The notes below the pieces were generated by a model that was not told the origin of the DNA, did no database searches, and was given only the letters and a program-made list of their open reading frames with translations. Position numbers and translations under genes: made by a program. From Halorientalis marina (GTDB taxonomy: Archaea > Halobacteriota > Halobacteria > Halobacteriales > Haloarculaceae): a stretch of DNA of 64,000 bases. The stretch covers positions 1,116,001 through 1,180,000 of the forward strand of contig NZ_CP095487.1 in NCBI RefSeq assembly GCF_023028345.1, in the 5' to 3' direction. Positions 7,932 to 30,588 of this stretch are shown one piece after another (positions within the stretch are counted from its first letter, which is position 1; the number at the start of each line of letters is the position of its first letter).

Positions 7932-8252
7932 ATGTCGTGGTTCGTCCTCTTCGTCGCCGGGTTGTTCGAGATCGCGTGGGCCATCGGACTGGCCTACTCC
8001 GACGGCCTCTCCGACCCGCTCCCGACGGCCGGAACGGCCGTCGCGCTGGTCATCAGTATGGTGTTGCTCGCGCGTGCCGTCGAGACGATCCCCATCGGGA
8101 CGGCCTACGCCGTCTGGACGGGTATCGGTGCCGTCGGGACGGCGATACTCGGCATCGTCCTCTTCGAGGAACCCGCGTCGCTCGACCGCCTCGCGTTCAT
8201 CGCGCTCGTCGTCGTCGGTATCGTCGGGCTCCACCACGTCTCGGGCGCCTGA
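7932..8252 (+). CDS. SMR-family exporter, Gdx/SugE-like
   Basis: A 106-residue protein with four transmembrane helices of the small multidrug resistance family, which works as an antiparallel dimer exchanging protons for substrate. Glu13, in GLFEIAWAIGLAYSDG, is the family's essential acidic residue. The WAIGLxYSDG signature is that of the Gdx/SugE branch, characterised elsewhere as guanidinium exporters, rather than the EmrE branch. The gene stands alone: some SMR members work as heterodimers from two genes, but no partner is seen here. No guanidine riboswitch is apparent in the 40-bp upstream gap. Confidence 0.85.
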   Translation: MSWFVLFVAGLFEIAWAIGLAYSDGLSDPLPTAGTAVALVISMVLLARAVETIPIGTAYAVWTGIGAVGTAILGIVLFEEPASLDRLAFIALVVVGIVGLHHVSGA

Positions 8253-8377
8253 AAGCCACCCTTTTCGCGCCCGGGGTCGATGCCAGTGGCATGGAGTACG
8301 TCACGCTCGGCCGGACCGGCACGAAGGTCTCGCGGCTCTGTCTGGGGACGTGGCGCTTCGGTCGCGAGACCGGCGGC

Positions 8378-8422
8378 GTTGCCGAGCGAAGCTCGGCAGC
8401 CTGTCAGACGCCGTCTGACAAC
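8378..8422 (+). repeat. Double-hairpin palindromic element, copy 1 (45 bp, in frame)
   Basis: Hairpin A is GCCGAGC-GAA-GCTCGGC (8381-8397, 7-bp stem, GAA loop). Hairpin B is TGTCAGAC-GCC-GTCTGACA (8402-8420, 8-bp stem), after a 4-nt spacer starting AGC. The element is bounded by GTTG (8378-8381) and CAAC (8419-8422). Its length is 15 codons, and removing it restores the usual aldo/keto reductase reading GGVVETDEE. The same architecture recurs in copy 2, so this is a mobile or amplified unit and not a chance palindrome. Confidence 0.75.
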
Positions 8423-8497
8423 GTCGTCGAGACGGACGAGGAGCAGGCCCACGACCTGCTCGACGCGGCGTGGGACCGCGGTATCAATTTCATCGAC

Positions 8498-8548
8498 ATC
8501 ACCAGAACGCGAAGCGTTCTGGTTAGCTGCCAGACGTAGTCTGGCAAC
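8498..8548 (+). repeat. Double-hairpin palindromic element, copy 2 (51 bp, brings a stop)
   Basis: Hairpin A is ACCAGAACGC-GAA-GCGTTCTGGT (8501-8523, 10-bp stem, same GAA loop). Hairpin B is TGCCAGAC-GTA-GTCTGGCA (8528-8546, 8-bp stem), after spacer TAGC and followed by AC as in copy 1. Hairpin B differs from copy 1 by a paired change (T:A to C:G at the third base pair). Hairpin A has a quite different but fully paired stem. It contains TAG in the reductase frame and splits FID from TANVYG. Confidence 0.75.
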
Positions 8549-9429
8549 ACCGCGAACGTCTACGGCACGCCCAACGGGACGAGCGAGGAGTACATCGGCG
8601 ACTGGCTCGCCCACCACGACCGTTCGGACTTCGTCATCGCCTCGAAGGTGTACTTCCCGTTCGACGGCTGGGGCGAACCGGGGTCAAACGATTCCGGACT
8701 CGGTCGCAAGCACGTCCGCGAGCAGATCGAGGGGACGCTCGAACGCCTCGGCACCGACTACCTCGATCTCTATTACATCCACCGCTGGGACGAGGCCACG
8801 CCCGTCGAGGAGACGCTGGCGACGCTGCACGACCTCGTCCGCGAGGGCAAAGTCAACTACATCGGCGCGTCGACGATAGCCGCCTGGCAACTGACCAAGG
8901 CGCTCTGGAAGGCCGACGCGAACGGCTGGCAGGCCTTCGACGTGACCCAGCCGCTCTTCCACGCCGGCTACCACGACGACGTGCGCGACTACCTCGACGT
9001 CTGCGCCGACCAGGACCTCGCGGTCCGTCCGTACTCGCCGCTCGCGGGCGGCTTCCTCACCGGGAAGTACGAGCGCGTCGAGGGCGACCCCTACACCGTC
9101 GAGGCGCCGGACGGTTCCCGTGCCGCGCTCTCGGACCGCTTCGACGACTTCTACGTCTCCGCACGCGGGTGGGAGGTCCTCGACGAAATCCGCGCCGTCG
9201 CCGACGAACTCGACGCCACCAACGCGCAGGTCGCGCTCCGCTGGCTCGTGGAACACGACGAGTTCACCTGCGTGCCCATCGTCGGCGCCCGCACCGTCGA
9301 CCAGCTCGACGAGAACGTCGGCGCCGTCGACCTCTCGCTCTCCGACGACCAGTTCGACCGCATCCTCGACGCACGCTACGACGAAGACGGCACTCGGTGG
9401 GGCCACGGCGAATAGTTCCTACGTGTAAA

Positions 9430-30476: not shown

Positions 30477-30588
30477 CCGGCGCGCGAAGCGCGCCGGTTC
30501 ACTCCGCGCGAACGGAGTGAGCGCGGAGGTAGTTTTTCCCCAAGTTTTTGCAGGAGGGGGTGGGCGAGCAACGCGAGCGCACCCCCTC
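30477..30588. terminator. Three-palindrome region between convergent genes
   Basis: Hairpin 1 is CCGGCGCGC-GAA-GCGCGCCGG (30477-30497), with the GC-GAA-GC core of the reductase insertions. Hairpin 2, TCACTCCG-6 nt-CGGAGTGA (30499-30520), follows after one base. After two T-runs (GTAGTTTTTCCCC and AAGTTTTTG, 30530-30549) comes hairpin 3, GAGGGGGTG (30554-30562) with CACCCCCTC (30580-30588). The T-runs fit U-dependent archaeal termination after spt5, and the paired first two hairpins look like another palindromic-element copy. Confidence 0.55.

Follow-up and report, generated by a model that had tools for sequence, protein, structure and literature searches.

Two palindromic inserts lying within a single gene of Halorientalis marina are probably copies of a two-hairpin DNA element of 45-51 bp that is found across the order Halobacteriales, is likely to be mobile but non-autonomous, and mostly encodes an in-frame, hydrophilic linker of about 15 residues; on the basis of sequence comparisons, we place the probability of this reading at roughly 0.6. 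What is observed directly is that the family exists and how it is distributed, that in-frame inserts have corresponding empty sites, that the stems covary, and that near-identical copies occur in unrelated genes. The window analysed here is the whole 64,000-nucleotide stretch, C1:1116001-1180000, of a genome of 4.75 Mb in four contigs, and coordinates refer to the window unless prefixed otherwise.

Unit 1 (8378-8422, plus strand) is 45 bp long and adds 15 codons (VAERSSAACQTPSDN). It is defined by its fold, its absence from relatives, and a match of 57.1 bits to the covariance model R1 described below, its core at 8381-8422 being the top R1 match within the window. Hairpin A (8380-8398, plus strand) has eight perfect pairs around a GAA loop, or ten pairs across 8378-8400, one of them G-U, in the RNA fold; hairpin B (8402-8420, plus strand) has eight pairs around a GCC loop. 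Unit 2 (8498-8548, plus strand), separated from unit 1 by 75 bp, is a 51 bp, long-spacer form defined by its fold and by comparison with relatives, with a weak R1 match of 19.7 bits; its hairpin A (8501-8523, plus strand) has ten pairs and a GAA loop, and its hairpin B (8528-8546, plus strand) eight pairs and a GTA loop. Each unit folds into its two triloop hairpins, with energies of -28.2 kcal/mol for unit 1 and -28.4 kcal/mol for unit 2 (z scores of -6.0 and -6.6), equalled by 0 of 200 shuffles. The B hairpins of the two units differ by a single compensated pair (T-A versus C-G), whereas the A stems are unlike in sequence and yet completely paired in both. An earlier sequence-only reading of this DNA had described two such units of 45 and 51 bp, 75 bp apart, with a conserved, compensated hairpin B and a divergent but paired hairpin A; the coordinates and folds bear this out, with one G-U pair in unit 1 when ten pairs are counted. 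A further 45 bp copy lies in frame at 398-442 on the minus strand (R1 50.6 bits over 398-439), within a glutamate synthase gene assigned through Pfam, which occupies positions 1-931 of the minus strand and is cut by the window edge; in a scan with this glutamate synthase, the named relatives that came nearest belong to Halorientalis.

Units 1 and 2 both interrupt an aldo/keto reductase gene (8291-9415, plus strand), recognised from its open reading frames, Pfam, relatives in the PDB and insert-free relatives, with the Pfam domain Aldo_ket_red matched across 8549-9412. The reading frame runs from an ATG at 8291 to a TAG at 8537-8539 on the plus strand, and downstream is open again up to the stop at 9415. 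This in-frame TAG, seen in the open reading frames and by comparison with relatives, had escaped the initial description; it is formed by the loop of the second hairpin of unit 2. The insertion of unit 2 also separates D from Y in the conserved motif D-T-A-N-V-Y, these being two residues of the aldo/keto reductase catalytic tetrad. As unit 2 thus splits a conserved motif and carries a stop codon, the reductase gene is predicted to be inactive, and is probably an ordinary pseudogene. Both units are absent from all 28 readable relatives (29 loci were fetched; L035 was unreadable). The closest of these read GTWRFGRETGGVVET...NFIDTANVYG across the region, and deleting exactly 45 and 51 bp therefore restores the family sequence, as had been proposed. 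The readable orthologues lack the inserts rather than holding them as ordinary conserved protein segments, and the structure has other copies elsewhere.

These further copies were found at two levels. Firstly, 2.4 Mb of the same chromosome contains 24 neighbouring pairs of triloop hairpins with spacers of 1-8 nt and a minimum of 14 stem pairs, several of which are in-frame parts of genes; order-4 Markov sequences gave 2, 3 and 3 such pairs, and control spacings of 30-37 nt gave 4. Secondly, R1 was built from nine 42-nt cores with a 5-nt spacer, six originating from palindrome or pairing searches of this genome and three from blastn similarity to unit 1; it was restricted to members with 5-nt spacers because mixed-spacer alignments were unusable. 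At a threshold of E <= 0.01, R1 gave 549 matching rows in 88 of 117 genomes of Halobacteriales, with a maximum of 33 in one genome, these row counts including some sites read on both strands; the 17 rows in the H. marina genome correspond to 16 sites. In other respects the counts are lower bounds, since unit 2 matches weakly, and both a long-spacer copy in the nitrite reductase gene and a second subfamily are missed. In a draw of 148 genomes from the phylum, 20 matched R1, all of them within the order; the 16 genomes listed from outside it were free of matches, a further 108 match-free genomes being unlisted. In 80 named genomes, the regions surrounding glutamate synthase, 1.8 Mb in total, contained only three R1 matches. 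The viral_contigs set contained no match to the exact hairpin B consensus, a pattern that diverged copies would escape. Spacers of 5 and 8 nt do not stand out cleanly among the spacer lengths counted in the H. marina genome (13 at 5 nt, 6 at 8, 13 at 10 and 11 at 13).

Related structures were noted alongside. The second subfamily, at C1:262044 and C1:3104520 and in loci L288, L289 and L290, encodes roughly ASETQRADGEAVDD, has a loop phase differing by one base, and also lies in frame in genes; in the HerA-like gene of G012 and G118 (L396, L397) it occupies the very position that the main type takes in other genomes. A different double hairpin, about 50 bp long, occurs at C1:139157, 634092, 1010530, 1046338, 1197952 and 3050416, and perhaps at window positions 30477-30520; its layout is GAGCAT, a triloop hairpin, TTCA or TTCG, then a longer hairpin, often with a run of T nearby. 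Series of yet another double-hairpin type, with spacers ending TGATGA or TGATCA, are found in L170 (1926-2125) and L190 (1785-1832). Intergenic double hairpins of other types were kept out of the family analysis.

Comparison of orthologous sites reveals some that are filled in one genome and empty in another. The gene for a HerA-like ATPase (Pfam DUF87) was matched in 89 genomes, and of the 20 sites read, five carry an R1-type element and two have a subfamily-3 element in the identical position; 11 sites are empty, and two contain other short inserts. Within one genus, this site is filled in G039, G077 and G107 and empty in G055 and G085, the two states differing by exactly 45 bp beside GAC codons. 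Among eight glutamate synthase sequences, the first insert, at 398-442 of the window, is confined to H. marina, while the second is shared with a Halorientalis metagenome-assembled genome (L164) and missing from the other six. Two merA genes with 77% DNA identity hold elements at different sites, each site being empty in the counterpart, and the nitrite reductase insert is missing from all four relatives read. The insert at C1:3104520 is likewise missing from all 15 relatives read, seven of them from the same genus, with another short insert in L277; a 50-bp match to it, of 98% identity, lies elsewhere in G039, a member of another family, and similar sequences are found in plasmid genes of Haloterrigena, Halorientalis and Halosolutus. 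The plasmid hits opened were five of six for unit 1 (H21, H22, H24, H25, H26) and three of four for the C1:3104520 element (H27, H28, H30). Identical 42-nt cores also occupy different genes, in G002 (L312, L326) and in the H. marina genome (L327).

If the element is mobile, an enzyme supplied in trans would move it. The sequence-only reading had proposed looking for a REP-associated transposase (TnpA-REP); a link to an IS200-type (Y1) enzyme of this kind is not supported, as Y1 counts do not correlate with the element over the 117 genomes. A mobilising enzyme was not found by this route: the presence of a Y1 transposase is independent of the element (117 genomes, Fisher p 0.20, Spearman 0.06), with Y1_Tnp in 61 genomes, of which 49 have both and 12 the transposase only, while 39 have the element only and 17 neither. 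Thirteen of the 22 genomes rich in the element (at least nine rows) are without a Y1 transposase. The sole Y1 gene found in the H. marina genome, at C1:1685353-1685700 (L117), adjoins a tnpB gene.

These data bear on the alternative that the units are remnants derived from IS200/IS605 elements, like the terminal-only PATEs of Haloquadratum, for which the mover, now or formerly, would be a Y1 transposase or some process linked to TnpB. Copies resembling unit 1 do sit in DNA similar to the 3' ends of tnpB, with a zinc-ribbon motif upstream in L322, which suggests that the element may travel from genome to genome on transposons of the IS605 type. A VVETGSP tail near such copies is presumably TnpB-like, and we take the copies in L373 (727-768, minus strand) and L376 (699-740, plus strand) to lie inside sequence resembling an IS605-type terminal palindrome. 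The small size and the hairpins near both ends also fit a remnant, and terminal-only PATEs of 52 bp are described for a haloarchaeon (PMC3119063). However, the number of elements does not track that of Y1 transposases, the ends of the single Y1 element of H. marina look unlike each other (on inspection by eye only), and the copies studied here are coding and phased, whereas PATEs are described as non-coding. We regard an origin from IS200/IS605 elements as rather unlikely.

The anatomy of the main family was derived from R1 rows of 42 nt scoring at least 42.3 bits, which retained 93 of 150 rows, representing 90 loci and 83 distinct cores; three 44-nt rows and 54 lower-scoring ones, many being the opposite strand of the same site, were excluded. 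A typical copy is 45 bp long, often follows a GAC codon, and comprises two stems of 7-10 bp with triloops. Its 5' part is mostly GAC AGC, a first stem that is mostly G-N-N-G-R-R-C, a triloop and the returning arm; its 3' part is a spacer mostly ending GCA, a second stem that is mostly R-Y-C-R-G-A-C, a triloop, the returning arm and GAC (63 of 83 cores). The encoded peptide approximates to S-x-E-R-S-S-S-G-S-R-T-Q-S-G-D, with alternatives at most positions, and three of the 83 cores have a stop codon in the element frame. Loops of the GNA type occupy loop B in 54 of the 83 cores and loop A in 29; when closed by C-G, GNA loops form exceptionally stable DNA mini-hairpins. Tandem copies at exact 45-bp steps occur in eight of 90 loci, with four in succession in L349.

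The stems vary in sequence while remaining paired. Across the 83 cores, 1153 of 1162 stem pair cells are Watson-Crick, three G-T and six A-C, although this observed pairing is inflated because six of the nine seeds were found through a pairing or palindrome pattern and only the best-scoring rows were kept. Among the nine seeds, relative to the commonest pair, 30 cells are changed on both sides, none on one side only, and three are unpaired; none of 500 shuffles attained their covariation score. The second glutamate synthase insert differs between H. marina and L164 by one paired change from A-T to G-C and one G-T. Broken pairs also occur in orthologous copies (G039/G107, L364), and these single breaks and the G-T indicate that upkeep of the stems is not absolute. 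As selection on RNA should tolerate G-U and not A-C, the finding that G-T is no commoner than A-C points to a process acting on DNA, and it suggests that stem structure is maintained at the DNA level. The choice of the best-scoring rows inflates pairing, but scoring by an RNA model should favour G-U rather than A-C.

The same comparison weighs against a structured mRNA element, in which the hairpins would work in RNA, through processing, pausing, bypassing or removal, with selection on RNA pairing. Both units have stable RNA folds and lie inside mRNAs, and the stop in unit 2 would be harmless were the insert removed or bypassed. Yet the three G-T cells do not exceed the six A-C cells, although both the model and RNA selection favour G-U; no Rfam 15 family scores above its gathering score, positions 8200-8700 having one sub-threshold match that lies outside the units; no bulge-helix-bulge was seen; and the encoded peptide is conserved and hydrophilic. 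We therefore regard function as an mRNA structure as very unlikely. Local template switching, which would create and repair palindromes in place without any mobile element, would account for paired changes at the DNA level, including that from A-T to G-C in the L164 orthologue. As a complete explanation it is also very unlikely, because unrelated sites share the same architecture, and near-identical sequence, across genera and families; it may still serve as the upkeep of palindromes after insertion.

The non-autonomous coding element favoured here is predominantly found within genes. Of the 93 rows, 85 keep the frame of the element open over 100 codons or more, and 76 over 200 or more. That this frame is the longest open one in only 48 of the 93 rows reflects the long antisense frames of GC-rich genes, and the coding argument is consequently carried by Pfam matches. 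Domains were identified in all 30 insert-bearing proteins scanned: 10 taken from the H. marina genome, with the domains in the frame of the insert, and 20 taken from the 71 frames that stay open for 200 codons or more. Hosts in the latter set include MutS, two ABC transporters, a class I tRNA synthetase, tryptophan synthase alpha, anthranilate synthase, ThiI and aldehyde dehydrogenase. The ten from H. marina are a TFIIS-type zinc-ribbon protein, a PAS/HATPase histidine kinase, a DEAD-box helicase, a HerA-type protein, a DUF309 protein, a pyridine nucleotide-disulphide oxidoreductase, a cupin, a nitrite/sulfite reductase, a prephenate dehydratase and glutamate synthase. The insert in the H. marina MutS faces a 15-residue gap when aligned to the solved MutS structure 5akb. 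Avoidance of stop codons does not by itself fix the phase, because other frames are also largely free of them: among 84 distinct 45-mers, 81 are stop-free in the element frame, and 84, 46, 67, 69 and 79 in the other five. The frame used is the most hydrophilic of the six (mean -1.49). Selection on a useful 15-residue linker peptide alone, with palindromes a by-product of codon choice, would fit this hydrophilicity and the clear peptide consensus, but is likewise very unlikely, as a peptide needs neither about 99% pairing nor freely varying stems, the paired substitutions change the residues encoded on one side of the stem or on both, and stop-bearing copies (unit 2; L353-L355) retain perfect stems. 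Hence the original suggestion of an amplified palindromic element, embedded in genes and conserved in structure, is supported by in-frame copies, covarying stems and its presence in 88 of the 117 genomes of the order, as found by the covariance-model search that had been envisaged.

Several contexts stand apart from this general pattern. In histidine kinase-like genes (L349, L363, L372, L378, L328, L362, L374 and L381, and C1:1774753 in H. marina), the element is at an N-(A/S)-V-E-H-G motif, the codons of which form the first arm of hairpin A; because tandem arrays are common at this site, the family may have been established there for a long time. L348 (G109) also has tandem copies, at about 709-795, with stems that differ from one another yet pair; they lie at the 3' end of a gene resembling HIT-family hydrolases, where the element frame contains a stop. 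Finally, L353, L354 and L355 (G052, G097), L358 and L359 (G074), and contig C3 of G089 have many copies per genome with nearly the same flanks or equal scores; these are apparently outside genes, and may ride on a larger repeat.

We envisage a mechanism with four parts. Firstly, a copying or maintenance step would act on DNA hairpins, as suggested by stems that change in pairs while G-T does not outnumber A-C, and by the many GNA loops. Secondly, insertion would occur at or beside a GAC codon, and a length divisible by three would preserve the reading frame. Thirdly, a peptide rich in Ser, Asp, Gly, Arg and Gln would be tolerated in protein loops, enabling copies to persist in housekeeping genes. 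Fourthly, the element would be moved by the enzyme supplied in trans. A stronger form of this proposal, which we hold only tentatively, is that an enzyme recognising DNA hairpins inserts 15-codon cassettes in frame at aspartate codons throughout the order, with the palindromes being renewed at the DNA level. If so, the order would keep adding the same flexible linker to proteins such as MutS, the TFIIS-type zinc-ribbon protein, prephenate dehydratase and glutamate synthase.

Similar repeats are known from several systems, each differing from the family described here. The PATEs and SMRs of the haloarchaeon Haloquadratum walsbyi are palindromic repeats without a transposase, some only 52 bp long, and SMR-A elements insert into near-terminal palindromes of IS605-type elements (PMC3119063). 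They differ in being described as non-coding and in having other sizes and ends, SMRs being about 80-110 bp with terminal inverted repeats (PMC3119063). REPs and BIMEs are also short, many-copy hairpin repeats, some occurring as pairs of hairpins; however, REPs are extragenic by definition (PMC3733652), whereas this element is mainly coding (85 of the 93 rows) and has no association with a Y1 transposase. Classification as a MITE was rejected, as there are two separate hairpins rather than one terminal pair, and no significant excess of target duplication (the left codon equals the tail codon in 46 of 93 rows, with 38.8 expected). PARCELs are coding palindromic repeats that spread between genomes and occur in tandem (PMC2996958), but they are described as 75-nt tandem units with imperfect dyads, encoding amphipathic domains in proteins mostly of unknown function (PMC2996958), in contrast to single inserts in conserved enzymes.

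The closest likeness is to the RPEs of Rickettsia, which are in-frame coding palindromes, with similar repeats reported from Wolbachia and Methanocaldococcus jannaschii (PMC10969869, PMC2996958). In these sources, RPEs are short palindromic repeats in frame in unrelated genes, adding a peptide and lacking a transposase of their own; they are about 150 bp long (PMC10969869, PMC2996958), whereas the haloarchaeal element is about 45 bp, the two having been compared by description only. The element resembles RPEs as a many-copy palindrome that interrupts unrelated genes in frame, at sites that are empty in orthologues, and differs in its two separate triloop stems, single codon phase, 45-bp tandem steps and order-wide archaeal range. 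The open-access literature searched contained no description of an in-frame coding-palindrome family in haloarchaea, although one may exist elsewhere. The family accounts for insertions in conserved haloarchaeal proteins, as well as for the predicted reductase pseudogene. With filled and empty sites in one genus, near-identical copies in different genes, and genetically tractable members of the order, its spread is open to direct test, as is the question of whether in-frame inserts are maintained as DNA, RNA or peptide. Hence the best reading of these units is probably a non-autonomous mobile coding palindrome, resembling RPEs but smaller, codon-phased and order-wide, and the family is unusual in combining dispersal through an archaeal order with a structure apparently kept at the level of DNA.
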